Source: Selaginella tamariscina
Lineage: Eukaryota; Streptophyta; Lycopodiopsida; Selaginellales; Selaginellaceae
NCBI GenBank assembly: GCA_003024785.1
Contig: PUQB01000299.1
Location: forward strand, 1 to 64,000
Length of the DNA stretch: 64,000 nt
Direction: 5' to 3'
The notes under the pieces are model-generated. The model ran no database searches, was not told where the DNA came from, and worked only from the letters and a program-made list of their open reading frames with translations. Position 1 is the first letter of the stretch, and each line of letters begins with the position of its first letter. Both the position numbers and the translations under genes were made by a program. This document shows, in pieces, positions 880 to 36,780 of this stretch.

Positions 880-1421
880 TAGATGCAAGTTGTAACTAAA
901 ATGGGCATGGCTATAGTCCCATTTCCTAATAATTAGCAATTTTAGCTATTTAATTAGCATTTTCTAATATTAAAGGAATATTCTTTAGAATATATGTTTG
1001 AAAAGAGAATATTCTATTTTGTATTCTACCCTTTAATAAATTATAGCATTTATTGAACAAAAATTAATAACATTATAAAGTAGAATGTATTAAATTATAT
1101 AATATATTGCCTAATATAACAATTAAGGAAGAGCATAAGAGGTACATTATATAAATATTGATGTTGTTATTAAAATATTAATATTTAAATATAACATTAT
1201 TAATTAAAATTTGTAGTAATAATAAATATATATATAAAATCTTATAATAATATAGTCAATCTTCCATATCATTTTTATTAATATTTATATAGTTAAATAT
1301 ACAATTTTGGTACTATTATTAAAGAGTTTATAATAATTATGAATATTAAATATATTGATATTTATAATTTTGTAATTGCTTTAATTCTTCAGAAACATAC
1401 ATTTCTTGCAGTTTTGTTAAT
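880..1421 (+). repeat. 540-bp dispersed repeat, inverted partner at 37751-38290
   Basis: This A+T-rich stretch, starting near ATGCAAGTTGTAA and ending near CTTGCAGTTTTGT, is almost identical to the reverse complement of 37751-38290. Agreement looks well above 90%, with small indels. It begins TGCAAG and ends CTTGCA, like an LTR with short inverted ends. However, the match runs a few bases past the CA end, no target duplication is visible, and no primer-binding site or polypurine tract adjoins it. It lies between the left-edge methyltransferase fragment and the 3' end of the transposase-like gene. No coding capacity was seen. Confidence 0.75.
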
Positions 1422-1469
1422 CGTGACTTTATCAACGCTTCTTGACATCCACCCATATCGATGGATTTA

Positions 1470-3568
1470 ACATTTATAAACATGCTGGGTCTTTTTGATT
1501 GGGAGACCATGTTTTCTGTAGGCATCCATTATATCTTTCGCTCTCCTTCTCGTGTCGCCTTTTTTATGGTTTGAACCATGCAACCTTAACAATATTTTTT
1601 TGTGATTATTCAGGTGTGTCGATAATTTGACCCATCCAAATAGGCTGATTATATGACGCATCTGGAGTAATGAGAACCATCATTAGTTTTTGAAGATCCT
1701 TGCAGCAATCAAAGTATGCTTTAGGTTTTTGGTTTACCCTAAACTCTCAACAGGGCCATCTGTTTTTTGTGCAGGTTGCTGACAATGCCTCTCATATTCC
1801 CAAGTAGCCTCAAGTGCAGATGTGTTCATGAGAGCATTATGTAAAGGTTGAAGGTGTTGTTTCTTCACTTTGAGATCACTGATAGGACTTGTCTGTGAGT
1901 GGGCTTCAAGGTTTCTGAAACACATGGCTAACGACCCAATAGTGAAATTGGAGTCGCTAGACCAATGTGGAAGTGAAAAGTGTCCATATGACTCACAACC
2001 GTGTCCATGTGTTAGCACACCTGTCAATGAAATCGGAAGTTTCATGACATTTCCAAGGCACTTTGGTGTTGCAAAGAGCTTTGGAATGCTGGTCTTTGAA
2101 TGATCCATCTTGTCATGGATCAAGCACAGGTACTCTGATGGCGTGACACAGAAAGCATGCGGTGTGCATAGTACTGAGACCGGCAAGTTTGTTGTGCAAT
2201 CATGTGGGCCTCCATCTTCCTTTGAATGGTAGTGATCTCCACCAAGGTTTTTGCACAAGCCTCTGCAGCCTTCAATGATGTACAAGTGTCACACTTAGAA
2301 AAGCTAGAGTGTTTTGCAATCTCCACATCCTTAAAATGAGTATTCCATATGTTGTTGAAGGTACCAGTGCAGATTGCTTGGAGCCCCATCAAACTGAGGC
2401 ACTTGTTCACATGTTCACACAGTTTCAATTGAGTGTAGATTGAAGGTAAAACCTTGAGATTTTCCCTGACCCCTGCATTTGTGGTTCGGCATTTGTGAGG
2501 CATCCTGTCTGCATTTGCTTCCACAAAAGCCTTGAGTATCTCTATGGCTGCCATGATGTGAGAGCGGGTTTTGACCAAGCGAGTGTTCCCATGAACTGAG
2601 GTTCGCGCTCCATCTAGCCACTCATCCCTCCGACGGTAGAACGTGGTCTTTGGGATCCCGTATATACTGTACCAAGCTTTGAAGCAGATGGCCACCTTAT
2701 TAAATACCATGGATGTACTCTGATAACCTGTGTCCGAGGCCATTCCATCAATACACCCAGTTAGTGCAGCATATACAAACTCATGCCTTTGCTTTTGGGT
2801 GAGCATACGAAAGACATGTCTACATTGGGTAATTTCATTCCGGTCTGCCATCTGACAACACTTCTTCTTGCAACAGTCAATCGTGGAAATGCTCGTAACA
2901 CTTTCGGAAGATGTAGGATCCATCTTTACCCTCTTGCTGAAACTTGCAGGGGAAGATCTACAACCCATGAATCGCCTTTTTCTTACAATAGGACCAATGC
3001 AAGGAACCTCTTCAAATATGAGTTGTTCTTCCGGGTTGTTATTATTGAAATCCAACCCAGAATATGTTGAACCATCTTGCCGTCTTAATTCAGATGTTCG
3101 CCACCTCACGAGGGATCCAGGATACAATGTGCCATTAGGTGAAACCTCTGTCACAACTACACCCACGAAGTCGGACCCTAGTTTCTCTTCTGACACTGCT
3201 TCCATTGGATTTATAGCTGTGATGATGCCTCTTCCGACTTCAATCTCACGAAGAAAGAGAATCACCTCATCCATCACAGCAGGCAAGCCATCATCTGGTA
3301 AACTCGTGCTACTATTTGTTTGTGACTCTGCATATTCTGTGTCAGCCTTGACTTCATCCAAATTCCACAATACAGGAGAACCCTCCTCAAATTCCATTCC
3401 CAGAACCTCAACATGCTTGTAAATGGTGTTCACCCATACGTACACACAAGATCCTTGGGCAATATTGTGACATGATGCATTATTATCTCGAACTTCCACA
3501 GTTCCAGTGCCAACTATCTCGTTGTTCCGAAGAAGACATACTTTATCTCCAGTATTAAACATATTGTC
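1470..3568 (-). pseudogene. Transposase-like gene of the DUF7869 type, frameshifted
   Basis: The main reading frame starts after a splice acceptor (TGCAG at 3573-3569) and runs to 2120. Its first 70 or so residues (GDKVCLL.. to SPVLW) look like a small beta-rich N-terminal domain. Next come a Cys cluster (CCKKKCCQ), a segment with FYRRRDEWLDG that suggests DNA binding, and the zinc-like motif SKCDTCTSLK. Near 2140-2180 the frame shifts, and 2110-1734 continues with IHDKMDHSKT, LTHGHGCESYGHF and DSNFTIGSL. This resembles the RNase H-fold core of DUF7869 proteins common in algae, mosses and ferns. A stop near 1734 and another frame (MVLITPDASYN) lead to a basic tail near 1470. At least three disruptions make an intact product unlikely. 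Family assignment is from memory of conserved phrases; no search was run. Confidence 0.7.
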
Positions 3569-3716
3569 CTGCACATAAATAATTGTATTATTTATGATAT
3601 CTGTTTATGCAATATTTCTAAGAAATCTGAATTACGGTTACTTAATAATATGCATATGCAATAATACATAATTATGTTTAGAGATAATATCTCATGTTTG
3701 ATTAATACAACTGATG

Positions 3717-4447
3717 GGCGGGATTAATCCCGCCCACGAATCCCTCCGACGAGGAACGGTCGGCGGGATTAATCCCGCCGCCGACTCAACCCCTTCGGAG
3801 AGAGTCGGCGGGATTAATCCCGCCTTGGACTCCCTCCGAAGGAAGAGCCGGCGGGATTAATCCCGCCGCCTCTTCCTTCGGGGGAGTCCGGCGGGATTAA
3901 TCCCGCCGACTCTCTCCGACGAGGAAGTCGGCGGGATTAATCCCGCCGCCGACTCACCCCTCGGAGAGAGTCGGCGGGATTATCCCGCCACGAATCCCTC
4001 CGACGAGGAACGGTCGGCGGATTAATCCCGCCGCCGACTCACCCCTTCGGAGGGAGTCCAAGGCGGGATTAATCCCGCCCACAATTCTTACGACGGGGAA
4101 TGGGTGGCGGGATTAAACCCGCACATAACTCTCTCCAAAACTATGATTTCAAAGAGATCTCGGGATAAATCCTGTCCCCAAATCCTTAAAACAGGGATGT
4201 GGTGGCGAGATTAATCCCGCCACCCCTTCCCTGCCTCCTAAAATGGTTGGCGGGATTAATCCCGCCGACAACTCTTTCTAATAAATTCTGGTAACTCTTC
4301 ATCAGTTGAGAAGGTTATCGGCGGGATTAATCCCGCCACTCTTTTTCAGTGGCGGAGAAGCATTGCCCGAGAGATGGTGGCGGGATTAATCCCGCCACCT
4401 CTTCGAAGAGGCGAAAAAGAAATGGCCGGATTAATCCCGCCGCCCGG
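3717..4447. repeat. Palindrome array 1: about 16 copies of GGCGGGATTAATCCCGCC
   Basis: The 18-bp perfect palindrome occurs intact at 3717, 3762, 3807, 3850, 3890, 3930 and 4062, and again near 4247, 4319 and 4378. Near-copies with one or a few changes lie between these (for example 3973 and 4016, each one base short) and at the end (4424). Spacing is about 40-60 bp. Spacers such as GACTC..TTCGGAGAGAGTC are themselves short inverted repeats, so the array alternates two kinds of hairpin. It is G+C- and CpG-rich in an A+T-rich setting and starts about 150 bp upstream of the first visible exon of the minus-strand transposase-like gene. The function is unknown. Confidence 0.95.
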
Positions 4448-5160
4448 TTAACCTAGAATATTAAGTTAAAAGGATATTTAAACGGGATAAATCCCTAACG
4501 GAATATATTATAATCCTAATGCATTCCTAAACCCCTAAATTGTAATTTTAAGAGAGAATGTAAGAGAGTGAATCTTTATAAGTATTTTTAAATTTGTTTA
4601 TAATACTTACTTGTAAACAGCACTGAAGGCGCCGTGCTTTCCTATAAAGAATAGCACCCAATTTAATCTCGCTCCTGAGATGATCACTATGAAGAAAAAA
4701 AAGATCTAAAGAGTGAAAAATACAGAAATGAAGAAACCCTTGCCGGAGAAAGAACCAGATCTGAATTTGAGTGGGAAATTAAATGCATTTTCAAATTTAC
4801 ATGTCAGACCGACAATACATATGTCAGAAATTCAAATTTTTTAAAAAGAACAGAAAATAAAATTTAAGATGAGTTGACACAAATATCCGACACTCTGACA
4901 TATATACTCTCCAGTTCCAATGAGTATTTTAAAATTGCATTTAATGTTATTCAAGTGATTCAAGCTGTTTAATATTACGAAATTTTAGACTATATTCTAC
5001 ATTCTTAGTATTCAAGTATATTTATATTATATATATATATAATATATACTTATACAATAAATAAATTGATATATTATTATGTATCATTTAAAATATATTC
5101 ATAGTCTGTTTATTATTATTATTTTCTTAATTACTCGAGTATTTAGTTTTCATTTCCTAG
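4448..5160. other. A+T-rich spacer without recognised gene
   Basis: No convincing coding frame is visible. The part at 4600-4790 is less A+T-rich and contains TATAAAGAATAGC, followed by a purine-rich stretch. It could be a leader or untranslated exon, but no splice or start signal settles this. The rest is simple A+T-rich DNA. Confidence 0.4.
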
Positions 5161-5164
5161 TATC

Positions 5165-5800
5165 AATGGGATATTCTTTAATATTTTATTAATATTTGAA
5201 GAATATTCTAATATTAAACCTGATTATCATAATTAAATTAGTCTTGTTCTTAATTATTGCAGTAATTATTCTACATTTGTATATATTAATGGGATTTTCT
5301 CAATTAATTTGTTATTATTTCAAGAATATTCATGTGTTAAACCTTATTATCAATATTAAATTAATACACACTATGAACATATTTTAAATTATACATAATA
5401 ATACATCATTTTATAATATATAGTCATATATAGTTTTAATAATATATATATTAATATCATTTCCTTAATTACTTGAGTAATTAATCTTCTTTATATTAAT
5501 GGGATATTCTTTATTATTTTCTTATTATTCCAAGAATATTCCAATATTAAACATGATTATGATAATTAATTTAGTTAATTATTTGAGTACTTAATTTACA
5601 TTTGTATATATTAATGGGATTTTCTCAATTAATTTCTTATTATTTCAAGAATATTTCAATGTTAAACCTTTTTATCAATATTAAATTAATATATATTATT
5701 AAAACTATATATGGCTATATATTAGATAAAATCATATATTATTATGTATAATTTAAAATATGTTCATAGTGTGTTTATTAATATTATTTTCTTAATTATT
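5165..5800. repeat. A+T-rich higher-order repeat, about 328-bp period
   Basis: The phrase AATGGGATATTCTTTA occurs at about 5167 and 5496, and AATGGGATTTTCTCAATTAA at about 5288 and 5616. Each is followed by similar text (TTATT..CAAGAATATT..AATATTAAACC). This gives two roughly 120-bp diverged monomers repeated as a pair with a period near 328 bp. Short flanking phrases (TTTCTTAATTA) also recur at both ends. The translated frame at 5196-5387 is a by-product of this repeat. Confidence 0.7.
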
Positions 5801-6035
5801 CGATGTTTGTTTTGCACACATATATAAACACAATCATAAATTTACACACGCATTACAAGAACTTACAAAAACACATATGCACACACATGCACAACCCTAA
5901 ACCAAACTGAAGAAATATGTTGCTTCTTTATTGAAAACATCATGTTCAACGCATGTATGATATATGTACTCAATCTGTGTGTATGTAACACATTGAATTT
6001 ACATGTGTAATATTTATATTAAGCTTGTTGGGAGC

Positions 6036-6620
6036 AAACCCTAAACCCTAAACCCTAAACCCTGTGTATACATGTGTGTACAAAAATAATTTTTCAACAC
6101 TCTCTCTTCACACCATGCATGATCCATCCTAAACCCTAAACCCTAAACCCTAATATGTAACACAATGAATTTACTCATGTAATATGTATGTATGTCTGTG
6201 TGTATACACGTGTGCATGTATATATGTGTACTCTGTATGTATATATGTGTACTTTCTGTCTTCTCTCATACATACACACCATGCATGATCCATGTTAATA
6301 TGTACTGTCTCTCTTCTCTCAAACATACACACCATGCATGATCTATAATATGTACTCGGTCTCTCTAATATTATGTACTAATATGTATGTATGTCTGTGT
6401 GTATAATACACACCATGCATGATCCATAATATGTACTGTCTCTCTTCTCTCATATACTATGTATGTATATCTGTGTATAATATGTGTAAGTATATATGTG
6501 TACTAATATATGCAATGTGTACAAAAATAATTTTTCAACACTCTCTCTTCTCTCATACATACACACCATGCATGATCCATCCTAAATCCAAAACCCTAAA
6601 CCCTAAACCCTAAACCCATG
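6036..6620. repeat. Interstitial telomere-like tracts in a CATGCATGATCCAT minisatellite
   Basis: Three short runs of CCCTAAA are present, at about 6036-6063, 6128-6152 and 6589-6616, each with three to four units. The plant telomere repeat is TTTAGGG, so these are interstitial telomere-like sequences. They sit in a region where CACACCATGCATGATCCAT recurs (about 6113, 6279, 6327, 6411 and 6566). Two of these copies run directly into a telomere-like tract. TATGTATGT and TGTGTGTATACACG runs fill the spaces. No gene is present. Confidence 0.85.
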
Positions 6621-6989
6621 TAATATGTATGTGTGTGTATACACGTGTGTATGTATATATTATGTGTATTAATATATGCAATGTGTATGTATGTATTGAT
6701 ACACATGAAACTTTAACACTCTCATGGACACACACATGTTAAATCCCTGCATGATTTATATTTTTGGGGTGTATGTGATACACCCACGCACACGCACGCG
6801 CTAATAATATAATGAAAGAATATTCGTTTAGGGCGAATCTATATTTTATTCTTTTTAGGGTTTAAGTATATTCTCAGAAGGAATATTCTATTAGGGTTAA
6901 TATATATATTTAATTCCTTTAGGGTTTAGGTATATTCTTAGGGTTTCAAGAGGCGGCGGCTGTGAAATCGGCGGCGGCGGCTGTGCACA

Positions 6990-7000
6990 CAGGTGAGATC

Positions 7001-7031
<31 letters not shown>

Positions 7032-7296
7032 ATATATGTATAGGAGTGTGCGTATAAATTTATTTATTAGTTTTATCTCTCGCACACACACGCACACTCC
7101 TGTGTATGTATATGTGTGTGTGGGTGTGTGTTTGTTTATCTGTATGATTTTATTTGTTTCGCTCACACACGCATACACACGATATACATATACACATATA
7201 TATATATATATACATATATACATACATATATTATGTGTACCAGTATCTGTAAATTTTTTTTTATTGATCTATCTCTCCCACACACACGCACACTGC

Positions 7297-7363
<67 letters not shown>

Positions 7364-7996
7364 CAATGCATATTAACAAATAGTATACAACACTAGTTTA
7401 TATATATGCTTATATATTCATATGGGTTATATATCTATATACACACATATATATATGTGTGTGTTTATCTGTATAATTTTATTTATTTATTAGTTTTATC
7501 TCTCGCACACACACGCACACTCCTGTGTATGTATATGTGTGTGTGTGTGTGTGTTTGTTTATCTGTATGATTTTATTTGTTTCGCTCACACACGCATACA
7601 CACAATATACATATACACATATATATACCTATATACATATATACATACATACAACACTAGTTTATATATATGCTTATATATTCACAGACTCTCTCTCTTT
7701 CTCTATGGATTATATATCTATATACACACATATATATGTGTGTGTTTATCTGTATAATTTTATTTATTTATTAGTTTTATCTTTCGCACACACACGCACA
7801 CTCCTGTGTATATATATGTGTGTGTGTGTGTTTGTTTATCTGTATGATTTTATTTGTTTCGCTCACACGCATACACACGATATACATATACACACATATA
7901 TATACCTATGTACACACATATATTATGTGTACCAGTACTGTATAATTTTATTTATTTATCTATCTCTTGCACACACACGTACACTCCTATACATAC

Positions 7997-8043
<47 letters not shown>

Positions 8044-8103
8044 TATATATGTGTGTGTTTTTATCTGTATAATTTTTTTATTTATTAATTTTATCTCTCG
8101 CAC
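6990..8103. repeat. CA/GT/TA microsatellites inside a longer repeated unit
   Basis: Long GT, CA and TA runs (for example GT at 7000-7027, CA at 7300-7342 and TA at 8010-8032) are embedded in a longer repeated text. The phrase CGCACACTCCTGTGTATGTA recurs near 7090, 7514 and 7796, with a diverged copy near 7980. It is followed each time by TTTATCTGTATGATTTTATTTGTTTCGCTCACAC or a close variant. The open frames here are Cys/Val/Tyr/Ile/His/Thr simple-sequence translations and are not genes. Confidence 0.9.
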
Positions 8104-8123
8104 ACACGCTAAGCCCCTCGAGC

Positions 8124-9722
8124 GGCGGGATTAATCCCGCCGCTATAGGTTTATGGCCTCGGCGGCGGATTAATGGCTATGGGGCCATGGCGGCGGGATT
8201 AATCCCGCCGCCGAGGCCCTTCACGCAGGCTATGGGCGGCGGGATTAATCCCGCCGCTCTACGACAAACCGAAGAGCGGCGGGATTAATCCCGCCGCCCA
8301 TGGCCTGCGTGAGGGGCCTCGGCGGCGGGATTAATCCCGCCGCTCACCCATGCCCTGCGCGGAATGCGGCGGGATTTATCTCGCCGGCAATGGCCTGTGT
8401 GAAGGCCCTAATGGGCGGGATTAATCCCGCCGGATTCCGCGCAGGGCATTTACAGGGGATGGGCGGCGGGATTAATCCCGCCGCTCATGAGGCTAACCGA
8501 AGAGCCTGCATGAAAGATCCTGCACGGAAGGCTAACCGAAGAGCCTGCATGACATGTCCTGCGCGTAAGGCGGCGGGATTAATCCCGCCGCCCAGGGAAT
8601 TCACGCAGGACATGAACGGCGGGATTAATCCGGCCCCACGCTCATGCCCTTCGCGGAGGGCGGCGGGATTAATCCCGCCGCTCAGGCACTTCCGCAGGAT
8701 ATAAGCGGCGGGATTAATCCCGCCCCCACCCATCCCTGTTCAAAATGCCGCAGCCAATATATATGTGTGAGCGCATGATTTACGAGAGGGCGGCGGGATT
8801 AGTCTCTCCGAACCTTCATTACCCGGTGGCGGGATTAATCCCGCCACCCTTCTTTTTTTCCTCCATTGGTATGTTGAATCAATCCCGACTAACTCTGTCT
8901 GAGACGGAGAAGGTTTACAAAATACCAATGGAGGGAACTGAGAAGGGTGGTGGGATTAATTTCACCATCCCTTACATGGTGGGCGGGATTAATCCCGCCG
9001 CGTACGCATGCCCTGCGCGGAATCGGGCGGGATTTATCCCGCCGCCATTGGCCTGCCTGAAGGGCCTAGGCGGCGGGATTAATCCCGCAAGATTTCGCAC
9101 AGGGCATTGGCGTTCGGCGGGATTAATCCCGCCGACTAAGGCCTGAGTGAAGGGCCTGGGAGCGGGATTAATCTCGCCGCGTACGCATGCCCTGGCGGAA
9201 TCGGGCGGGATTTATCCCGCCGCCATTGGCCTGCCTGAAGTGCCTAGGCGGCGGGATTAATCCCGCCCGATTCCGCGCAGGGAATTGGCGTCCGGCGGGA
9301 TTAATCCCGCCGCATAGGGACGAGTGAAGGCCCTGGGCGGCGGGATTAATCCCGCCGAGTCTTCAATGCCTGTTGGAGGAATGAATCCCGCCACCCTTCC
9401 TTTTCTCCATTGGTGAGTCGGACCAATCCCAAACGTTTCTGTCTGAGACGTAGAAGGTTTTCAACATACCAATGGAGAGAATTGGGAAGGGTGGGGAAAT
9501 TCATTTAACCATCACTTACATGGTGGGCGAGATTAATCCCGCCCCCTTTCTGGAGTCACTGAAGGGGTGTGAGAAATAAATCCTGCCCAGTTCTCTCTGA
9601 GACCGAGAAGGGTGGCAAGATTAATTCCGCACTCCCGTTCAAGGCCTCCAGAAAGGTGGCGAGATTAATCCCGCCCACTCTTTCAGGAGGCATTGAAGGG
9701 GTGGCGAGATTAATCCCGCCGC
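8124..9722. repeat. Palindrome array 2: about 29 copies of GGCGGGATTAATCCCGCC
   Basis: The array begins with a perfect copy at 8124-8141 and holds roughly 16 perfect copies and a dozen near-copies, ending near 9722. Spacers form a different family from array 1, built on GCCCTGCGCGGAAT and GGCCTGCGTGAGG. Successive spacers are often reverse complements of each other. About 180 bp is tandemly duplicated (CGTACGCATGCCCTG at 9001 and 9180). Two spacers carry longer inverted arms: CCTCCATTGGTAT at 8860-8872 with its complement at 8922-8934, and a related pair at 9404-9414 and 9468-9478. The array ends about 300 bp upstream of the first visible exon of the ParB-like gene. Frames such as the one at 8300-8704 are translations of the repeat. 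Confidence 0.95.
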
Positions 9723-9834
9723 ACCTTCCATGTGAATATATATGTGTATTAGTATATATAAGTTGCATATCTCATTTTATTTACTTTTATCATCTTATCA
9801 TAATATTTCGAGTAAAAGCTAGGAATCTATGTAA

Positions 9835-9921
9835 AACTGTCCAGAGCTCACATTTGTGGTGGTTCTAAAACGAAATGTTATCTTTCTTTTGCACTAACAC
9901 AAATGTGAGCTTCGGACAGTT
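9835..9921. repeat. Imperfect 24-bp inverted repeat (hairpin) upstream of the ParB-like gene
   Basis: Arm one at 9835-9858 (AACTGTCC..GCTCACATTTGTG) pairs with arm two at 9898-9921 over 24 positions with two mismatches. The loop is about 39 bases. The size would suit a small-RNA precursor or a very short foldback element. No target duplication or promoter could be assigned. Confidence 0.75.
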
Positions 9922-10024
9922 AATTACGTCTACTTCTCTCTGTGTATTATTTTTGTATATTCGGGTTTATACAAGTGTGTGTGCGTTTTTATATAATTTA
10001 TATTTATAGTGTATTATTTTGCAG

Positions 10025-12909
10025 AAGGACGATTTGATCAAACAAGGAGATCGAGTCATTAGTATGGAGTCGTCGTCAAATTCTGGGTAAGAATTAAAAT
10101 AAAATCTGTTATACTCGGATACTTGAACTAATCATTTTTGTATTCAGATGTGGAATTGAGGTGACATTAAAGACAAGAGCAGGAGAAGAGATGGGCAGGG
10201 GGATTCTGGAATCAACTTGGCCATATTTTAAGATAAATGGGAAGCGCATTGGAGCAACCATGGCTGCTGTCAAATTAACCTCTGTCACATCTCATGGACA
10301 AGCAAAACAATGGAAAGTAGATTCGCTAGTCAAGCACCCGAAAGCAGGCTGCGAACCCAGATTGGACGATGCTCGACACATATGCCTTGTTCCATCCAAT
10401 GTCACGTTCTCGGATCCAGAGGTCGTCAGTTACAACATTAATTTCGGGTGGTTTTGTCGACTTGTGGATAATGACGTTCACGTGTTCACTAATGATGTTG
10501 ACCTTGGAGTTCTTCTTCAACTCAACGAAAGCCCATCTATGGAGGGGATCCATCTGGATGTCTACTTCGAAAATCTTCAGACTCATCGAGTAGGTGTATT
10601 GTCAGGAGATATTGCTTCACAATACAGAAAATCAGCAAGTGAAGCAATCTTCCCTCTTCACATTGAAGAAGAACACAGCGACATCATAATGGAGATTGAG
10701 AGGGTGGCTCGGTCTCAGGTTCTCTACAGATCACGTTCAATTTGCTTAGGGAGCTTTGGGAGCTGGAAGAGTGTACCGAGAACACTAGAACAGCTGCAGT
10801 CGGGGATCACACATGTTGATTCGGATCGCAAAAGAAAATCATCAATCGTTTTGTCAGCTGCACCTGTGGCATCTCATGCTGCAATAAGTCACAAGGAAAT
10901 GATGTTGGATGATAAGATTTATCCTTGTAGGGTTAAATATTGCAGCGTCAACCCAAACTTCAATTACAGGCCACTCAACCAGGAACGTGTAGCTGAGCTC
11001 ATGGAGAAGATGAAGGACGACAATTCTTATACCGTTCCACATAATGCTGTTTTGTGTCCATACTATGAAAGAAGGAAGGGCGCTGACAAAGTCTGGATCA
11101 CAACACCAGAACAACTCATGAAGATTCAGACGGAGAATAAAAAATCTATCAAGTACTACATCATTAGTGGCCAGCACACAATAACGGCAGCCCAACGACT
11201 TCTCGAGGAACACAACAAAGGAACGATGGCAACAAAACTTTCCGAGCATACCCGTGAGAAGCTGACAAAAAGATCGGCGTTTTTAGCTAAGCCGAATCTC
11301 ACAATCGAGCAGTACCATAAGTTATCGGCGGAATGGGACGCTGCCGACACCAACCACTACAACAGCAAAATATGGGAGAAGTTTAAACACACGCGAGCCG
11401 TGTGGGAATCTCTTCAGCGACCACAAAGAGCTACCGCAGGGAATACACAATCTGCGGAATACCGGGTAAGCAAATTGTTTGGGCGGGATTTATCTCGCCG
11501 GTATATTAATCTGTCTTTTTCCTCAGAGAGTTGAAGAAATTGCAGCAGTTGATTTTGCCCAGGTGGGCGGGAAGGAAACATCCTTTCTGATGATGTTGAT
11601 TTCTTGCCCCGAAGATAAGATCTTTGCCAAATGGTTGGGGATTATGGAATCCTTTTCAAAAGGAACACTGAAGAAGAAGCAGACAAGTGAAGGGGAGCCC
11701 TCAGAAAAGTCTGCAAAGAAACCCAGTAAGACGCCGAAGGCTAAGTCTGTTCAATCTACAAAGGATGTAGACAACGATTTCAAGCTCACATGGTTGAAGC
11801 CTTTAAATGGAACAACGATGGAGGAGATGGAAGTCTTGGCTGATTTGGTGATCGATGGCAAACTACAAATTAATAACAGCAGCCCAACCTCTCCTTTTCA
11901 TCTCAAGGCAATGGAGTTGAAGACGGTCAGGCATTTCAAGGAGTGGTTGGGAATACACTGCCACAAACTGGGTTGGACCTCGACTTCAACATATGAAGAG
12001 GTCAGCAAATATTTGCATGTGACGAACGATGATATGCTTGTCGAATGGGTGAACCAATCGGAAGATCTGGGCAAGAATCTATTGCACGCCAACGCCAAAA
12101 AGGAGAACATTGGGATGACGCCTTCTCTTATGGCAGTCCTTCAGCAGCGGAGAACCGAATTGAACCTTATAAAGGAGGATGCTACAAATCACGACAAGCC
12201 CTACAGATGTTTGTTGTTAGATTCGGAGACTTTATGGGGTAACATCACTGCCTTGTAGGAAACCGTTTCAATTGTTCGTGATGGATCGGCGGGTGTCAAA
12301 AAATCTTTCGACAGATAGGGCACTAGAGGATCTGGTGGAGAAACTTAGCCGTGCAAGCATATACATAGAAGGTATTTATTATTGAATTCATGCTTGCGCT
12401 CTTCACTGATACCTACTTTTTCAGGTATTTATTTCTTGATTCTTGCTCATGTCACCGATACTTTTGCCTTCGCCTTCGCCAAGAAGAATAGACATCGTTG
12501 GACAGGATTTTATATGAACGATGCTAATCCCAAGTGCATTGATACCGTTGTTCACTTGGTTGTTAGGAATGCGCCAAACAATTTCAAGCTTCCAAATGAC
12601 TGGCCAGGCATCTGTTTGCACTCCAACGGCCCTGAACCTCCATCCGATACACCGATAGGTATGAGTGACGTATTCGGCAATGTACGTTATCCAAACATTA
12701 CAAGTCAAGCGGCACGGAGCATCGTCAACTTGATTAGGGGTCCTCACAGTGATGCGTGGGTTTTTGACTACTGCACTAGGGGGTCCGTCTTGAAGGAGTG
12801 TTACCTTCGGCATACATGTGTGTTTGCCGTTGAAAAGGATAAGACCATGGTTGAGGACCTGAACAAGTGGATAGATTGGGTCTCAACTGAGTACCCCAAC
12901 GATCCATAA
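10025..12909 (+). CDS. ParB-like domain protein with divergent C-terminal DNA methyltransferase-like domain
   Basis: Suggested exons are 10025-10086, 10148-11465, 11527 to about 12238, about 12239-12371 and 12425-12909. Introns 10087-10147, 11466-11526 and 12372-12424 have GT..AG ends and keep phase. An ATG lies at 10064, but the frame is open back to an acceptor at 10024. Counting from that ATG, residues 10-90 look like a small beta domain. Residues 262-360 resemble a ParB/sulfiredoxin-fold domain (PLNQERVAELMEKM, then YYIISGQHTITAAQRL). A Lys-rich linker follows. Near residue 672, LLLDSETLW sits where a DPPY-type motif IV would be; then come IYFLILAHVTD and VFDYCTRGS..CVFAVEKD, like motifs X/I. 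A one-base frame change near 12236-12239 breaks the model. ParB-methylase fusions are typical of phages and bacterial mobile elements. Altered catalytic motifs argue against methylating activity. Confidence 0.62.
11482..11499. repeat. Lone degenerate copy of the array palindrome inside an intron
   Basis: GGCGGGATTTATCTCGCC differs from the array palindrome at two positions and lies inside the 61-bp intron at 11466-11526 of the ParB-like gene. The same variant (GATTTATCTCGCC) occurs inside array 2 near 8370. It is the only copy I noticed outside the two arrays. Confidence 0.85.
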
Positions 12910-13200
12910 AGGCGTATTTGAGAAAGTTCCCTCCAGATAAGTGCGATAGCTCTGAAGGTGAATCTGGTTCAATCTCGGAGTCTGAGAACGAACTTCAATC
13001 AGATATTAGACGGAAGTTATCTCGAGGAGTACAGAACATTCGCACACTCCAGGACCCATGGAAACATCAATAGAAGATGCAGAAGATCTTGAACCATCTC
13101 ACAAGCGGCTTAGACCTTCTTCGCCTCACTCAGAAGGTAATAGCGAAGAAGAATTGATAATGAATTGATAGAGTGACGAATAGTTGTAAATGAGTGTAAC
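12910..13200 (+). pseudogene. Probable frameshifted C-terminal tail of the ParB-methyltransferase-like gene
   Basis: Right after the stop at 12907-12909, another frame is open with KAYLRKFPPDKCDSSEGESG and an acidic Ser/Glu-rich stretch, to a stop near 13071. Overlapping it, a third frame begins METSIEDAEDLEPSHKRLRP and ends near 13168. Low-complexity acidic and basic tails of this sort are common at the ends of such proteins. I infer they belonged to the upstream gene before frameshifts; they could also be an unrelated exon. Confidence 0.4.
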
Positions 13201-13379
13201 ATAAGGCATTTTTGTATATTTCTTTTATATTTGTACAGAAAATAAATTCTCAAGGATTAATGAAGCTTTTAGTTCAAACATGGGTCACACATTAACAAGG
13301 TAAATAATATACCTTGATAATTTTAAGGTCAGCTAATTATCATTTTGCAGATGTAATGAAATAATTGAGAACATGGATT

Positions 13380-14606
13380 TTCAGCATTGCCATGAGGTAA
13401 GAGAGGGGTTTGGCGACAATTTCTTGTGCCACATGTCAGAATGACAGAGTTCATGCAGGAAATGGATAATAATGCAGCTCAAAACATCGTTACCATGGGG
13501 CCACTTCATCATCATTTTTATTGGCTTCAGTTCCGAAATCAATTTCTTCAGCGCATGCAATATCTGAATCTTGTAAGGATGATGTACAATTAAATGATGA
13601 AGGGATAGGCAACGAGATAGTGGCAACGGATAAATGTGAAAGGGAGCAAACAAGTGATTTGCAAAGTATTCAAGAGGCAACGCTATCTCATGTTACTCAT
13701 GGCCATATTGTGTTGTTGGATGTCAATGGTGTTCTGCTTCATCGACAAAGGCCCAGGATAGAAAAACAGAAATCAAACAAGGAGATTTCATTCCTTGTCA
13801 TGGTAAATTTCGATATGATATTATTTTTCGTCCAGGGTTGGATCGTCTCTTTCAAAAGCTTAAGGAGATGGGTGCGCTTGTGGGGATTTGGTCATGCATG
13901 CAGATTCATAACTTAACACCGCTGTTGAGTTTACTTAAGAAACATTGTAGTGTTGCAGAAGAGGTGATTCGTAAAGATTGGATTTTTGACCAGCGAATGT
14001 GTTCATAAACCTCTCGAATTTCACAATATAAAAAGGAAAGCAAGCCATACTTCTTCAAGAATGAAAGAATAATTGGGACTCATGGGGAGATCAGTCGCTT
14101 AAGGATAATGAAGAACGCACAGATGTTAGTAGTAGACGACTCTCCTCAGAAGGCTATGCTCAACCAAAACATTGCTTGTATTCATCCAATCACTTTCGAT
14201 CCATATTCTGATACCGATATCATGGATGAGCTAGTGAACTACTTGGATACGTGCCTCAGAAAAAGAATCTCGAAAATTTTTGTGAGCAGTATCCACCGTA
14301 TCATACATTTCCTGAAGCTTTTCTTTCTCGTGATATTGAATTTTATAAAATGAAGGATAGCAACCGGGCGCTTTATATAATATTATTCTTAAGGAACGTC
14401 AGTTTTTAGATGAGCCTTTATGCAGACCTTCTCTTATCACATCTTATGTATTAACAAGGATGGCAACTCCCAATTGCATTCGTGAGAGTGTTAAGTGGTG
14501 GCAACAACATCAAGATATTGACCAAAATGATTTGATTAATCCGGAGAGTGATGATTTAGACAAAATGAAAAGATTTCTTTGTATGATAGAAAGAAAGTAT
14601 TTATAA
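13380..14606 (+). pseudogene. FCP1/NIF-type HAD phosphatase-like gene, broken
   Basis: The frame at 13521-13800 reads an acidic leader and then HIVLLDVNGVLLH, matching motif I of FCP1/SCP (NLI-interacting factor) phosphatases, usually DLDETL. Here the second Asp is Asn and the Thr is Val. After a frame change near 13800 comes FRPGLDRLFQKLKEMG and IWSCMQIHN, then KDWIFDQRMC. At 14108-14270, LVVDDSPQKAM and FDPYSDTDIMDELVNYL match the last HAD motif and C-terminal helix. Another frame carries on with YPPYHTFPEAFLSRDIEFY to a stop near 14606. Family members dephosphorylate Ser/Thr residues, such as the polymerase II tail. Changed motif-I residues and several frame breaks suggest an inactive copy. 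It lies on the same strand as the ParB-like gene, about 200 bp downstream. Confidence 0.6.
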
Positions 14607-14840
14607 AAAATTAACATGTTGATAAGAAAATGATTTCATTTGTAATTATGTTTGATAGTATTTCTTCATTATTGTAAACTATTTTTAGAATAATATGAAT
14701 ATTCTAAGATATTTTAGGAATATTCCTTACTAAGTAAGGTTATTGAAGGATTAATTAATTAATTAATTAATATTTAAGGCTTAATTACATATTAATTAAA
14801 TGATTAATTAATAATTAAAACTTAAGTATTAATTAGTAAT
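14607..14840. other. A+T-rich spacer with TTAA runs
   Basis: No gene is visible. TTAATTAATTAATTAATTAA lies at about 14753-14773 and similar text follows to 14835. The stretch separates the phosphatase-like gene from an inverted gag gene. Confidence 0.5.
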
Positions 14841-15800
14841 TTATTTTATATTCCCATTTTCACGTATCATGCCCACTTTAGTTACAACGTGCATTTTAAT
14901 AAGACATTTTGCCACCTTGTGTCCTGCTTCATCACAATACATGTATAGGTTCTCACTGTGGCGACGTTGCTTCTCAGCAGCGGAAAGAGAGCCACGCTTG
15001 GATTTCTCAACCTCCATAGGAACTACTCCAGAAGGTGGTGCAGGAACATGTACCACAGCTGCAGGATTGGTTTGCAGAAACTATTGAAGAGATCTTTCTT
15101 GACGACGCTCGAACAAACGGTTGTCGCAACGAACAGCTTGTTGCATGATCTCTGCTAATGTTTGGGCATCCGGTAACGTAAGAAGAAGGTTCTTCACGTC
15201 ATCCCTCAACCCAAAACAAAAGTGTTTGATCAATGTAGTCTCGTCCCATGGAATGTTCGTGCAAAGTTGCTGAAATTTGGATGCATAGACGGAAGCTGGT
15301 CGGGATCCTTGAGTGAGCTTTCGTAACTTCGTGCATGCGGAATGGTACTTGTTAGGATCCCCAAAGCAGGCTTCAAAGGCAGCCATGAAACCTTCAAAGT
15401 CTTTCATCAATGGGTCATCACGCTCCAGCAAGGGGGCAACCCAAGCCCGTGGAGATCCACTTAGTAAGGATGCCAAAAGGCCAACCTTTTGTGCATCAGT
15501 CGAGTAGCGGCGTGGTTGCATGCGGATCAAGAGCCGGATCTGATTCAGGAAACCTTGGAAATCAGCACGATTGCCATTGAACTTTTCTGGCCTGGTGATC
15601 TTCGGCTCCGAAGAAAGGTTCGATGAAGAGGGAACCACCGATGCCTGAGAGAGAGCCTGCACAGCAGCCTTGGAGGATGCATCAGCAGCTGCATGTGCCG
15701 CATTGGTGGAACCTTGTAGATCGGTGACCACTTGGCGCAAAGTGGCCAGCTCATGAAGCAACATTTGGTGCTCGCATTGAAAGTGCTCAAAATCAACCAT
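14841..15800 (-). CDS. gag: Ty3/gypsy gag polyprotein, family II copy 1, in inverted block
   Basis: The frame at 15800-15081 encodes about 239 residues. It has a coiled-coil-like N-terminus (HELATLRQVVTDLQ) and then a retrotransposon gag core (ITRPEKFNGN, DFQGFLNQIRLL, GSPRAWVAPLL, FCFGLRDDVKNLLL). A second frame at 15056-14841 holds the zinc-knuckle remnant YCDEAGHKVAKC, where the first Cys of the usual CCHC pattern appears to be lost. Gag forms the virus-like particle that packages element RNA. The LTR at 15896-16453 lies upstream in the same orientation, while the matching pol is on the plus strand. The block therefore appears inverted relative to pol. Confidence 0.8.
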
Positions 15801-15895
15801 GATCTATGAAAGAAAAAGGAGGAAAACGAAGGAAAAGATTCAAGGAAAAAAAGTAGCTGGGAAACGGAGAGCTATGAAATCAGTTACTATCAATC

Positions 15896-30437: not shown

Positions 30438-31377
30438 TGTCATAGTTTTTTACTATGACTCGACCCTTTACTTTGGGGTTTGACTGTTGTTACCTACCGA
30501 GTTGTGTGGCGAACCCTAGTTGTAGTGAGAAACAGCCCCTTAGTGCACTTAGGTGTTTAGGGGTAGTCCGGCCGGCTGTCACTAGGTACCTCGAGAAACT
30601 CTAGGCGAAGGTAGTACTTACCCTCTAGAAAACTCTCCCCCAGTTTGAGTTACGGATAGGTTTTCCGTTAAATATAGCTTGTCAAAAAGGGTTAGGGACA
30701 CCCCTAGGGTTGACCTAACCCTACGCCCTAATACCCCCCCTAGGGGTTAGGTTTAGGGTTAGGTTAGGACAACCATTTTCTCTAAGGGCTGGCATTTCCG
30801 TGCCAGCCCACTTACTCATTTAGGTAAACAGGGGGGGGGGGTCCGTCACATAAATAAGGTAGAGTATATGTAGTGAGGCTTCCTGGGTTCAAAAGAGAGC
30901 TCGTTAACCTCCTACCGGTGCAAGCTAAGCTTGTGTCGTCAAGGTGCAACCCTCCGTTGTGCCGCCCAAACTTCCACACGACAGGGGTACAACCCACCCT
31001 AGGGTTAGACTATCCTTATCGTTGGCAGGATCTTGCCTTTGAGAGGGGCACGTCACTTCCAAGGAGTTAGTCAGATTCCTTGGTCCGAAAACCTGCCCAA
31101 GCTCAAAGACATTGCCCGAGTTCACGTTCCGCAAAACTAGCCTTGCTCCGGCCGCCTCAACCACGCCAAGCTAGGAACGACACCTAAAGCTCGGCTAGTC
31201 CGTGTATCCTGATTCACAAGGTGAGTCTCGTTTGGACTTAGTCAGTTAGGGTTTGTTCCTAAGGCTTGGGTTCCTAATACGGGTTACTTTACCAGATTCC
31301 GTGGGGTTTCCAGAGAGGGGATTCCAGGGTTGGCACCTGGCAAGCCGCCTTTGTGGCACCAGGTAAAAACTCTGACA
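30438..31377 (+). repeat. 5' LTR of chromovirus 1
   Basis: 940 bp, TGTCATAGTTTTTACTATGA..AAAAACTCTGACA. It includes repeated TAGGGTTA words, a C-run, a G-run (about 30830-30841) and CACATAAATAAGG, a possible TATA region. Confidence 0.92.
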
Positions 31378-31702
31378 ATTGGTATCGGAGCAAGTTCTCT
31401 GCGGTCAGTAGGACTGCCTTAAGTCGTAGAGTGTTTCAATGTTTAGATAACTCTAAATTCTTGATATACTCTATTGCTTTGGTTGACATGTCTGTATTCT
31501 GCGCAGAGAGTTTGATCCTGTGAGTTGTCAAACTTCGGAGAACACTTGCTCAGTGAGTCGGCGTGAGATTCTAGGTATGTCCGAAAGTCTTATGCTAGTT
31601 AAGCTGATGTGTGTGGGTGTACAACCTGTGCAGGGTGTTTCCAGTTTCACATTGGGAATATTCCAAGCATATTCTCCGAGTGTTGAACTAGGGTTCAATA
31701 CG
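31378..31702 (+). other. Primer-binding site and leader of chromovirus 1
   Basis: ATTGGTATCGGAGCAAG follows the LTR. TGGTATCGGAGC is one change from the usual plant initiator-tRNA-Met primer site. The untranslated leader runs to the gag start ATG at 31703. Confidence 0.85.
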
Positions 31703-33461
31703 ATGAGCAAGAAAAGCAACCAGAGCCTGAGGCAGAGAGGGCTGTCGCAGAGGCTCAAAATGAGGAGATGGATGAGCTGATCCAGGTCGACCCCCTAGGT
31801 TAGACAACGACCTGGTTGGCGAGAAATAATGATGGATGCCCTAAACGAACTTCGAGGGGATGTTTGGGGTTGAACGACCGAATCGATAATGTTGCCGTTC
31901 GGATTCCAACGAATACTACAGTGCCAGATGTTCCGCAACCAGACACACGGAAAAAAGAAGAAGAAGCATGACTCAGAGTCAGGTTCCTCTGAATCAGATT
32001 CTTCGACGGAAGTAGGTGGTAGAGGTCCCAGTAAATTCAAACCGGTAAAGCCTTCGAATTTCATGGGTTCAAAGGATTACAAGGTTTTGGATGACTGGTT
32101 GTATGATATGGAAAGCTATTTCGAGGCTGCTTCCGTGAGAAAGACAGAAAAGGTTGCATGTGCCAAGCAGTTTCTTAAAGAAGAAGCTAAGACTTGGTGG
32201 CGAATTGTTGAAGGTGAACGTGGATACCGAAACAGCTGGAAGCACATGAAAAAGGAGATCAAAAAGCAGTATATGCCGGATGATCTCGGTTTGCGATTGC
32301 GTGCTGACCTGGCACTTTGTCAACAGGGAGTTCGGGGAAGTCCTATGGACCACGTTTATCGATTCGAAAGTGTACGGCGATTGGTGCCAAATATGAGTGA
32401 TGATGAAGCTCGAAGTTGCTTCATGGCTAGCTTGAATGAGAAGACGCGAAGGAAATCTTAAGGTACAAGCCAACAAGCTATCGGGAATGTCAAGAGGCAG
32501 CTCAAAAGGTTGCTTATGGCATGTCGTTAGAAGACTTGTACAAAGGGGAGGAAGCAAAACCTAAACCAAGGAGTTTCCTCCAAAGTCTGGGTTCAGAAGG
32601 TTTGATAGGCGACCAGATCAATCGCCATCAATTCGAAGTGCAAGTCCCTTTGTCAGTTCCAAGTTTTCGGACACATCAAGACCCACCGGATTTCGGAAAC
32701 CATTGGCGTTACCACCTCCTCAGCAGGCCAAAGGATCGGCTCCAAAGTCTGCTCCCCCGCGTTCCGCAGGCGGGGTCGTGAAATGTTATAATTGTAACAA
32801 GCCTGGTCATTTTGCTAAAGAGTGTCCGGCACCCTCACAACAATCAGGACATTTCAAGGCGATGGTAGAAGAGGAAGTTGCTGAACCAGAAACGCTTGAA
32901 GATCCGGAAGATGAGTCAGAAGAGGTAATGTTGTGCCAGACACAACCTGCCTTATTCGCTATTCAAGACAAAACTGACCCTTTGCTATATTTGACAGGAA
33001 GGATACGAGGGGACCGAGTCCGAATGATGATCGATACTGGAGCAACATACAACTTCATATCGACTAGTCTAGCTCGTCGATTGAATTTGGATGTAATAAA
33101 GATGTGTGAAATAAAGATCAATTTTGGCAAAGGTTCTCAAAATACTAATAATATAGCAAGGGCAGTTCCTGTCCAAATCAAAGATTGGAAGGCTAAGCTA
33201 GACTTAGTTGTCTTGAATATGACGGGGTTTGACTTTGTTTTGGGTATGGAATGGTTCCATAAACATGTAATCGAAATGAGGGGTTCCGGAGATAATCGAA
33301 TCACGCTTGCAGCAGATAAAGAGGACATTAGAAAGACCACGCTCAAAATGGAAACGCTAACTGATAAGGATTGGAATCCTATGTTCCTTACCTTAACTCA
33401 GTTGCGTAAGGCAGTTAGACATCGAACGTGTGTTTCTTGCAATGGTTTTGGATACTGGTGA
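31703..33461 (+). pseudogene. gag-pro: Chromovirus 1 gag and protease, frameshifted
   Basis: The start ATG at 31703 opens MSKKSNQ; the frame is lost within about 30 residues and resumes at 31889. The gag core follows: DYKVLDDWLYDMESYFEAAS, KTWWRIVEGERG and SVRRLVPNMSDDEARSCF. A frame change near 32455 interrupts it. The zinc knuckle CYNCNKPGHFAKEC is at about 32785 and the aspartic protease motif MMIDTGATYNFIS at about 33027. Gag packages the RNA and the protease matures the polyprotein. Comparison with the minus-strand copy shows this one is shifted near its start and near 32455. Confidence 0.88.
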
Positions 33462-33479
33462 AGTCAAAATAGGAGATGG

Positions 33480-36359
33480 TCAAGAATCTGTTCCTAACCT
33501 ATTTTGGAAGTCTTGAACATGTTTAAGGATGTGTTGCCAAAGACTTGCCGCCGAGTTACCTCCACGTCGAGTGTGGACCACAGATAGAGATTTTGCCAGG
33601 TTCGTCTCCACCGGCAAGAGCCCCATATCGGTTGAATCCTCAAGAGTTAGTAGAATTGAAGAGACAGCTGACAGAATTGATTGGTCGAGGACACATTCGA
33701 CCTAGTCGATCGCCATATGGTGCACCTATCTTGTTTGTAATGAAAAAGGATGGTACGATGCGAATGTGTGTGGACTATCGAGCACTGAACGCGATAACTA
33801 TCAAAAATAAGTATCCTCTTCCACGAGTGGACGACTTATTTGATAGGCTATCAAAAGCAAAGTATTTTTCAAGAATAGACTTGAGATCGGGTACCATCAG
33901 ATTCGGGTAGCAGAGAATGACATTGAGAAGACCGCTTTTCGAACGCGTTATGGATCATTTGAGTTTCTAGTCTTGCCATTCGGGTTGTGCAATGCTCCAG
34001 CAACTTTTTGCACAATGATGGATGATGTGTTTAGAGACTATCTAGACGAGTTCGTAGTGGTGTATATTGATGACATTCTGATTTTCAGTTCGACAATTGA
34101 GAACATGTGGAACACTTAGAAAAAGTGTTTCAGAGGTTGAGAGAGAACCAGTTGTATGCTAAAGAAAGCAAGTGCGCATTTGGTCAAACCAAGATAGATT
34201 TCTTGGGACACTTGATCTCAGGTGGGGAGGTTGCCATGGACCCAAAGAAAATTCAAGCTATTACTGAGTGGATGACTTTAAAAGATGTGCATGAAGTTAG
34301 ATCATTTCTTGGTCTGACAGGGTATTACCGAAGATTCATAAAGGGTTACTCGGAAATAGCGGCCCCATTGACAGATCTTACGAAAAACATTCCATGGCAT
34401 TGGACTCCAGAGTGCCAACGTGCGTTCGTCAAACTCAAAGAGGCTATCTCTTCTGAGCCAGTTTTGCAGTTGCCCATCTTTGAAGATCCCTTTGAAGTAG
34501 AATGTGACGCTTCCGACTTTGCAATTGGTGGTGTATTGCAACAGAAAGGACATCCAGTGTCCTTTTTCTCGAAGAAGTTAGATGCCGCGCAAACTCGATG
34601 GCCTACTCACGAAAAGGAGATGTATGCTATTGTTGCTTCCTTGGAGTATTGGCGTCATTATCTTCCAAGTCATGGCACTGTGGTTTGGACAGATAGTGTA
34701 ACTCTAAGGTATTTTGAAACGCAGCCGAAGCTATCGCCAAGTATGCTAGATGGCAGCAGAAGTTGGCACGATTTCAGCCTGAAATCAAACATAAAGGGGA
34801 AAGGACAATGTGGTAGCTGATGCACTCAGTAGAAAGGGTCATCTTCGATTATGTCAGCACCCGTGTCAACTTTGGTGGATGAATTTGTGACGGCGTATCC
34901 TCAGGACAAGTTTGCTAAGGAGGCTTTGAGCCTGGTGGCAAAGAGGAAACAAGTTCATCAGTTACGAAGAGATGGTAATATTCCAGCAGGAATAGAAAGT
35001 CGAATGGATGCACTCAAACAGGCCATTTTGCGTACGAGATGGAGTTCTTTATTATAAAGAAAAGAGACTCTATGTTCCAGAAGGGACATGGAGGGAGAGG
35101 CTGTTAAGAGAGCATCACGACGTTCCTTTGGCAGGACATGGTGGAAGGCATAAGACGTTGGCTTTGTTGAAACAGGGATTCTATTGGCCGGGTATGATAG
35201 ATGATGTTGCCAAGTATGTCAAGACATGCCCCACATGTCAACAAGTAAAGAGCCGATCGCAAAAACGAGCTGGGAAGTTGCAGTGTATACCGATTCCAGA
35301 GCGGCCATTTCAAAGTGTTACTTTGGACTTTATCATGGGATTGCCAAAATCTTGTGGTTTTAATGCGCTCATGGTGGTAGTCGATCGGTTTTCAAAGGTT
35401 GCTCATTTCATTCCAACTGTAGAGACAGTGAATGCAATTCAAGCAGCAAAGTTGTTCTTCCACGAAGTCATAAGAGTGCGCGGACTACCGGAAACCATGA
35501 TCTCAGATCGGGATCCTCGGTTTACGGGAAGTTTTGGGGAATTGTTTAAGCAATTTGGTACGATGCTCAAGTTCAGTACAGCTTACCATCCGCAAACTGA
35601 TGGTCAAACGGAGAGGGTGAACCGACAAGTCGAGGACTATCTCAGATGCTATGTTCAAGGTGATCAACTTGATTGGGCTGAACACTTAGATATGGCTGAG
35701 ATATGTTACAATAACTCGATGCACACTGCAATCGGATGTAGCCCGATGGAAGTGTTAACTGGGAATAAGGGTGGTATTCCTCAGAGTATGGTGTTACCGA
35801 AAGACGATAGCAATCGAGTTCCATCTGTAGCAGAGTTCACGGGACAATTGTATCGAACATGGGAAGCTGCTCGTCAAGCGATGGCTGCAGCACAGGAAAG
35901 GTATCGTCAGCAGTACGATAAGCATCGGGGGATGTAGAGTATCAGGTTGGGGATATGGTATTGTTGAGTACCAAAAACCTGAAGGTTCCAACGACTCTTT
36001 CGAGGAAGTTTCTATCGCACTACATAGGTCCATACAAGGTGGTGAAGCAAGTAGGGAAAGTGGCTTATGAGTTAGATCTTCCTCCAGAGTTGGGAACAAT
36101 ACACAATGTGTTTCATGTCAATTTACTCGAGCCATTCCACAAGGATGAGAAACATCCGCAGAGATATGAAAACTTACGTCCGCTTCCTGAGCTGGTCGGC
36201 GATACGAAGGAGTTCGAAGTTGAGTCGATATTGATGCAAAGGATATTAAACGCTGAGGACGGAAAACGTAAACGAGAATATCTTGTTAAGTGGAAGGGTT
36301 ACCCGGCATGCGAGTCGACATGGGAACCATTGGATAATCTACAAACGCGATGGAGATAG
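33480..36359 (+). pseudogene. pol: Chromovirus 1 pol: reverse transcriptase, RNase H, integrase, chromodomain
   Basis: Reverse transcriptase starts near 33545 ([34 protein letters not shown]). It changes frame near 33893, after LRSG, and continues with the catalytic YIDD at about 34063. RNase H is at about 34480-34830 (VECDASDFAIGGVL). Integrase at about 35080-35930 has the zinc finger TCPTCQQVKSRSQ, DRFSKVAHF, SDRDPRFTG and YHPQTDGQTERVNRQ. The chromodomain ([18 protein letters not shown]) at about 36200-36340 places it with chromoviruses, which use this domain to target chromatin. At least four frame changes (near 33893, 34105, 34830 and 35935) make it inactive as it stands. Confidence 0.9.
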
Positions 36360-36780
36360 TGAAGAGTTTGAGGCAAGGTCTCAAACTGTTAGTAATGATG
36401 ATAGAAATAAAGTGAACTTATTTCTTTTAACCTAGGGGCCGAAGACAACCTTAACTAGAGGCCTCCATATAAATTCTAGTTAACTAAAGAAATTAACTAA
36501 CTTGTTGTCTGTGTCGGGTGACAGACTTTGCAGACGTGCAAAAGGTCTCCAAATGACTTCTTGTCGCAGGTGGTGCCTCCGGCAGCTGAGTTTCGCTCAG
36601 TGAACGACGGTTCTGAAGTACTTGGCTTCGCGTAATGCAAGGGGGGTAATAAAACTTGTGAACTTTTTGGCTGACTCCGCATAGAGTGATTAGTGTTAGT
36701 TTTTAGTTAATTTTTCTAACCTATCTAGTCTTGGAGTTAGACGTCAACGAGGACGTTGACATTTTCAAAGGCGGGGAGTG
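36360..36780 (+). other. Chromovirus 1 3' untranslated stretch and polypurine tract
   Basis: Non-coding in this strand. It ends with AAAGGCGGGGAGTG immediately before the 3' LTR, the expected primer for plus-strand synthesis. Confidence 0.8.

Follow-up and report, generated by a model that had tools for sequence, protein, structure and literature searches.

What a gene that had been read as a fusion of a ParB-like domain with a DNA methyltransferase does in the genome of Selaginella tamariscina, and whether its product is an enzyme at all, are the questions raised by a locus on contig PUQB01000299.1. We analyzed a stretch of 64,000 nucleotides of this contig, hereafter called the window. The original prediction described an intron-containing gene with a ParB-type core and a C-terminal half ordered like a beta-class N4/N6 amino-methyltransferase, and it regarded the gene as part of a self-modifying or self-partitioning mobile element. 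The idea that genes of this type are carried by eukaryotic transposons is already in print. The brown-algal transposon Sola1-1_Ec32 of Ectocarpus is described as encoding, on the strand opposite to its transposase, a protein of 1104 aa with a ParB-like DNA-binding domain and a DNA methyltransferase, and comparable transposons of green and red algae are cited beside it (PMC12477816). To place the Selaginella gene relative to these systems, we provide a description of its structure, of the element that carries it, of the evidence for its two proposed domains and of the palindrome arrays that surround it.

Structure and integrity of the 976-aa gene

As judged from splice sites and reading frames, the region from 10064 to 13168 on the forward strand is one intron-containing coding gene composed of four exons. 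Exon 1 (10064..10086) and exon 2 (10148..11465), which encodes the ParB-like segment, are followed by exon 3 (11527..12371) and by exon 4 (12425..13168), which encodes VFDYCTRGSV at 12760-12789 and ends the frame of 976 aa. The three introns are short and of spliceosomal type, with lengths of 61 bp (10087..10147, GT-AG), 61 bp (11466..11526) and 53 bp (12372..12424, GT-AG), and the second contains at 11482-11499 one copy of the palindrome discussed below. Nine copies of the gene, that of the window and eight that were fetched, were compared in detail. The splice-site bases at the three introns are the same in 9/9 copies and the spliced frame of 976 aa is uninterrupted in three of them (C603, C660 and C948), which indicates that the four exons constitute one gene and not, as would also have been conceivable, parts of separate genes. 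The three open frames also establish that intact gene copies exist. Small indels break the spliced frame early in the remaining six copies, the window included, and do so at differing places; exons 3 and 4 are both frame-shifted in the window copy. Some of these breaks may stem from indels introduced in assembly. An intron of 20 bp near 12239, at first taken for the third, was dropped, as it is a frame shift specific to the window that is absent in all eight other copies.

Exon 2 is present in at least 96 copies in the Selaginella tamariscina genome (300,702,823 bases in 1391 contigs), a count that is a lower bound since 96 of 6576 candidates were scored. In ten of the 96 copies, with the window's own among them, the protein sequence of exon 2 is identical, and none of the matches listed falls below 90% identity. 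A degenerate pattern designed for diverged lineages gave 18 matches versus 13 in a reversed control, and the five matches that were fetched yielded one decayed copy of the same family.

A giant cut-and-paste transposon carries the gene

The gene resides within a transposon copy that extends from 883 to 14894 of the window (14,012 bp), with inverted termini and boundaries compared across seven copies; the six other both-ended copies measure 14.8-15.0 kb. The left terminal inverted repeat, ATGCAAGTTGTAACTAAAATGGGCATG, occupies 883..909 (+) and the right one 14868..14894 (-), both being 27 bp long with 2 mismatches between them, and the consensus of the inverted termini is ATGCA[A/C]GTTGTAACTAAA[A/G]TGGGCATG. 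Single-base indels occur at the termini of two copies, with one base missing at the left end of C603 and one additional base at the right end of C948. Flanks were fetched for eight copies and left ends for six, and alignment to the window indicates that the unit common to the window and the fetched copies stops at 14894. Target duplications of 4 bp were found at three of the copies with both ends, namely TCTA at C224, ATAT at C627 and, only if one additional base is allowed in its right end, GAAG at C948. An empty site for C224 also exists on the same contig, where a stretch with identical flanks has no insertion and a single TCTA, and another stretch, with 83% similarity, is likewise without the insertion. 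Because the empty site puts ATGCA inside the inverted repeat, an earlier assignment of TGCA as the target duplication was dropped; the duplication consists of four other bases. The remaining four both-ended copies, including that of the window, have non-matching flanks and may be rearranged. The inverted repeats, the 4-bp duplications and the matching empty site of C224 thus identify the element as an integrated cut-and-paste DNA transposon with a 4-bp target duplication, and together with the many copies they confirm that the gene is part of a mobile element, one that is giant, high-copy and recently multiplied. The self-partitioning function that had been suggested is not needed by an element that is integrated in this manner.

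A remnant of a DUF7869 transposase gene is located at 1467..3604 on the reverse strand, divergent from and on the opposite strand to the 976-aa gene, and lacks about 0.93 kb at 1734-1742. In other copies this missing stretch holds the motifs DNCAGENKN and GHTHEDID; the region is present in 5/6 other left-ended copies and C660 aligns with a different gap. The presence of a transposase-like neighbor gene is borne out by matches to PF25273 (DUF7869) with E values of 7.7e-27 and 2.4e-12, both on pieces from copies other than the window and the latter on a composite of three copies. A short intron lies within the DUF7869 domain in six other copies. The DUF7869 exon has at least 300 matches in the host genome (150 of 4251 candidates scored) and matches in none of 14 control genomes. 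At least eight linked pairs of exon 2 and DUF7869, on opposite strands and 8-10 kb apart, were noted by eye in a partial count (C224, C113, C3, C147, C102, C660, C91 and C236). As for classification, Bao et al. reportedly gave a 4-bp target duplication as a feature of the Sola superfamily in 2009, one that the Selaginella element exhibits in 3/7 both-ended copies, and DUF7869 is presumably linked to Sola transposases. Passages of PMC5199201 and PMC10294476 contain nothing that assists in its classification.

The transposon additionally carries a third gene, at 13441..14606 (+, start approximate), that encodes an NIF/CTD-type HAD phosphatase, adjoins the right terminus and is interrupted in the window. 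The C715 copy of this gene matches PF03031 with an E value of 4.3e-9, and the pieces in the window remain under the Pfam cut-off. To our knowledge a phosphatase of this type is unusual cargo for a DNA transposon.

Outside the transposon, the right flank in the window sits in a Ty3-type gag gene. The same gag gene is also found in the C627 stretch, where the neighboring sequence does not match the left flank of the window. Pieces of Ty3-type retrotransposons are present in 14895-64000 (Retrotrans_gag at 15081-15803 on the reverse strand, E 8.4e-13), as are other pol-like open reading frames recognized by eye and a 7.3 kb inverted duplication with 98% identity (30438-37754 / 63237-55908). The window has no match in Rfam.

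Evidence for the ParB-like segment

The ParB-type core motif that had been reported is present as SGQHTITAAQRL at residues 348-359 (11166-11201 of the window), including the box-II-like SGQHT at residues 348-352 (11166..11180, +), in which threonine takes the place of the arginine of the canonical GxxR. GxxR is the P motif of ParB/Srx proteins, and its arginine is absent from the GQHT at residues 349-352; in proteins that have been tested, replacing this arginine abolished nucleotide binding, according to PMC12704722. We compared the protein with a profile built from 199 bacterial and phage ParB-methyltransferase fusions. With hhalign, approximately 32 residues around box II align at YIISGQHTITAAQRL (E 0.011, probability 3.9%) with a score reached by 0/200 shuffles, and HMMER gives 6.1 bits for box II, a score reached by 2/500 and 0/1000 shuffles and by 0/295 open reading frames of the window. 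The query in both tests was a segment of 125 residues picked by eye after the motif was seen, so the box II signal is a biased hint. The full 976-aa protein scores only 2.4 bits in HMMER against the ParB-methyltransferase profile. In an earlier test, a segment of 210 residues compared with 120 bacterial fusions was aligned at box II, but at least 8/60 shuffles scored higher.

No meaningful match came from Pfam for the spliced protein or its parts, nor from NCBIfam and PHROGs for two of those parts; weak matches to DUF658, Rhabdo_M2, BUD3 PH, IL31, GATase_2 and phrog_21535 were disregarded. The ParB_N profile (PF02195) detects nothing across the whole host genome and has matches in 11/14 control genomes. 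Word-seeded searches of a large protein set found no homologues of exon 2 or of the full protein, and no relative of exon 2 was found among phages and viral contigs. Of the sequence searches of the PDB, one yielded nothing and the others gave matches that were dismissed as chance: two designed repeat proteins at E values of 8e-06 and 0.022, of which no single stretch passed alone, and CDK inhibitor 1B nine times at E values no better than 0.014. A single-sequence structure model of the ParB-like region has a mean pLDDT of 41.9, which is too poor for a fold search. The proposed ParB identity consequently retains a marginal signal of about 32 residues in two tests, set against a third test that was beaten by shuffles, the missing arginine and, for residues 262-360, the lack of a significant match to ParB/Srx in the family libraries tried. 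We regard it, from the sequence, as weakly supported.

Evidence for the methyltransferase-like half

The C-terminal half fares worse. When it was compared with the 199 fusions using hhalign, 127/200 shuffles reached its score, and with HMMER the scores of its two parts were reached by 331/1000 and 243/1000 shuffles. PF01555 and related methyltransferase profiles gave no match (Pfam, NCBIfam, PHROGs and the 199-fusion profile), nor did the C-terminus have a significant match to Rossmann methyltransferases in the family libraries tried. The pattern [DNS][PI]P[YWFH], which describes a DPPY/W-type motif, occurs nowhere in the 976-aa frame, and LFVMDRRV (residues 696-703) stands where an alignment by eye would put the catalytic motif, with DRRV at the expected place. 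The structure model of exon 4 is unusable (mean pLDDT 33.5). Scores at chance level, no family match and no DPPY/W motif leave the beta-class N4/N6 amino-methyltransferase assignment unsustained, and the absence of the motif also makes the self-modifying role less likely. With the arginine of the P motif changed to threonine, the lack of relatives in the sets searched and the poor models considered as well, both domains are unproven and enzyme activity appears unlikely.

These results bear directly on the possibility that the gene encodes a working ParB-methyltransferase, in which the ParB-like part would bind the arrays and the C-terminus would methylate adenine or cytosine of its own element. 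Such a reading has precedent in layout, as Sola1-1_Ec32, too, is a DNA transposon of giant size in which the strand opposite to the transposase encodes a protein of about 1000 aa (1104 aa, compared with 976 aa in Selaginella), and the authors of the algal study suggest that proteins of this kind bind the transposon that encodes them and modify it (PMC12477816). However, the lack of any methyltransferase signal in the libraries or against the 199 ParB-methyltransferases, the DRRV where a DPPY/W-type motif should be and the missing box II arginine all argue against a working enzyme, which we consider improbable.

Palindrome arrays and the proposed role of the protein

The palindrome arrays reported beside the gene are a pronounced feature of the element. 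Allowing up to 3 mismatches, the 18-bp palindrome GGCGGGATTAATCCCGCC has 42 sites in the window, 42/42 of them inside the transposon, versus 0 in 100 dinucleotide shuffles of the window. Array 1 (3717..4441, 14 copies) is situated just upstream of the transposase and array 2 (8124..9720, 27 copies) just upstream of the ParB-like gene, with a commonest spacing of about 45 bp. Upstream of the ParB-like gene, an array of 23-28 sites is present in all nine copies of the element, as is the site in intron 2, and in seven of the nine an array of 13-19 sites precedes the transposase at its usual offset; C458 has twelve sites at another offset and in C505 the stretch is interrupted by other DNA. The host genome contains 27,128 exact copies of the palindrome and 0 of the reversed string. 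Another 58 sites lie past the right terminus on the eight stretches that were fetched, 54 of them on the C224, C660 and C715 stretches, which hold further copies of the element, two on C458 and two on C603. The arrays show no depletion of CpG, with ratios of observed to expected CpG of 1.18 and 1.01, but the transposase region does, with a ratio of 0.42. Values of 0.68-0.76 were obtained for the remaining parts of the element that were measured and 0.63 for the window outside the element; the high CpG of the arrays may reflect conservation of the palindrome motif only.

Two further features were observed in this region. Within array 2, at 8788-9543, stretches of about 200 bp are duplicated (8788/9335 with 81% and 8983/9162 with 91% identity), a sign that the array grows by tandem duplication. 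Between array 2 and exon 1 lies an inverted repeat (9839-9917) with 20-base arms, 18/20 paired, and a 39-base loop, which is possibly a hairpin or promoter element.

Dense arrays upstream of both genes, together with the intron site, suggest that a dimeric DNA-binding protein uses the palindrome for self-recognition, and this arrangement suggests the accessory protein as the natural candidate reader. We tentatively favor, at somewhat less than even confidence, a role as an accessory gene of a giant DUF7869 transposon whose product would bind the arrays carried by members of its family and thereby control or protect expression of the transposase and of itself. In this scheme, the 976-aa protein would use its ParB-like segment or another region to bind the arrays both in cis and in trans, and once bound it would act on expression of the two genes by analogy with VANC of the VANDAL elements, perhaps as an anti-silencing factor as in Arabidopsis. 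Any methyltransferase-like C-terminus would then be a degenerate, non-catalytic module.

The palindromes could instead be bound by the DUF7869 transposase or by a host transcription factor, with the 976-aa protein otherwise employed, and the position of the arrays directly upstream of both genes is that expected of operators. Transposase sites are usually subterminal. The arrays are at least 2.8 kb and 5.2 kb from the termini, and given that usual location this distance counts against transposase sites; a palindrome inside the accessory gene's own intron in 9/9 copies also speaks against the transposase or a host factor as the reader. We view this alternative as rather unlikely.

The substitutions also bear on the self-recognition role. 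Across ten further copies of exon 2, pN/pS values range from 0.19 to 1.94, based on few changes and with two frame-shifted stretches left out, and from 0.28 to 1.7 with those stretches kept, when one pair without replacements gives 0. These values do not reveal selection on the 976-aa protein, a point against the self-recognition role. At residues ~189-215 of exon 2, single-base gaps common to five of the ten further copies (L048-L052) shift the sequence to another frame, after which the original frame is restored. Another possibility is that the element captured the gene but draws no function from it, and that the frame is open only because the copies are young. Values of pN/pS near 1 in several comparisons, the broken spliced frames of 6/9 copies and the presence of a second cargo gene, the NIF phosphatase, are all in keeping with functionless cargo. 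On the other hand, the gene, its splice sites and its upstream array are found in all nine copies, the exon 2 frame remains open in five copies over three single-base gaps, and the breaks differ among copies and may partly be assembly indels. We assign this explanation a low probability.

Comparison with known systems

The Selaginella element shares with Sola1-1_Ec32 and its algal kin, as they are described, the form of a giant DNA transposon (generally >10 kb) with a gene for a large protein opposite the transposase. Unlike Sola1-1_Ec32 as described there, it measures 14-15 kb, resides in a land plant, encodes a DUF7869 transposase and bears palindrome arrays, and its domains are too diverged for the profiles tried and have apparently lost their catalytic residues, a comparison in which the algal proteins are represented by their description only. 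Bacterial and phage ParB-N6/N4 methyltransferase fusions (PF02195 + PF01555) resemble the Selaginella protein in the order of segments, as seen by eye, and in the box-II-like motif. They differ in that the Selaginella protein has GQHT in place of GxxR, no DPPY, long additional N-terminal and middle regions and introns, and beyond the marginal box II there is no significant profile match between them.

A further parallel in organization is VANC of Arabidopsis VANDAL transposons. It is described as a transposon-encoded protein that binds short, tandemly repeated motifs located upstream of genes and within introns of its own family and that causes loss of DNA methylation (PMC5735166). Both systems have a transposon-encoded factor, a candidate one in Selaginella, and short motifs that are arrayed upstream of genes and in introns and concentrated in their own family. 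In its non-coding parts the Selaginella element thus has what a VANC-like system should have, motif arrays that are concentrated in the family. The motif of VANC21 is 9 bp long with one orientation, whereas that of Selaginella is a perfect palindrome of 18 bp. A more far-reaching interpretation would be that a land-plant transposon converted a ParB-methyltransferase into a dead scaffold that serves non-enzymatic, sequence-specific self-recognition and anti-silencing, with a parS-like palindrome in some 27,000 exact copies genome-wide and an origin independent of VANC, and to this we attach only slight probability.

No land-plant case of a ParB-methyltransferase on a transposon was found in the literature searched, which consisted mostly of papers other than those under subscription. 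What looks new is the land-plant host, a lycophyte, together with an 18-bp palindrome that recurs in arrays ahead of both genes and also lies in intron 2. The palindrome makes the self-recognition hypothesis directly testable in vitro. If self-recognition should prove untrue, the earlier reading of this locus would still be corrected, to a gene that is cargo of a mobile element and whose enzyme domains are unproven.
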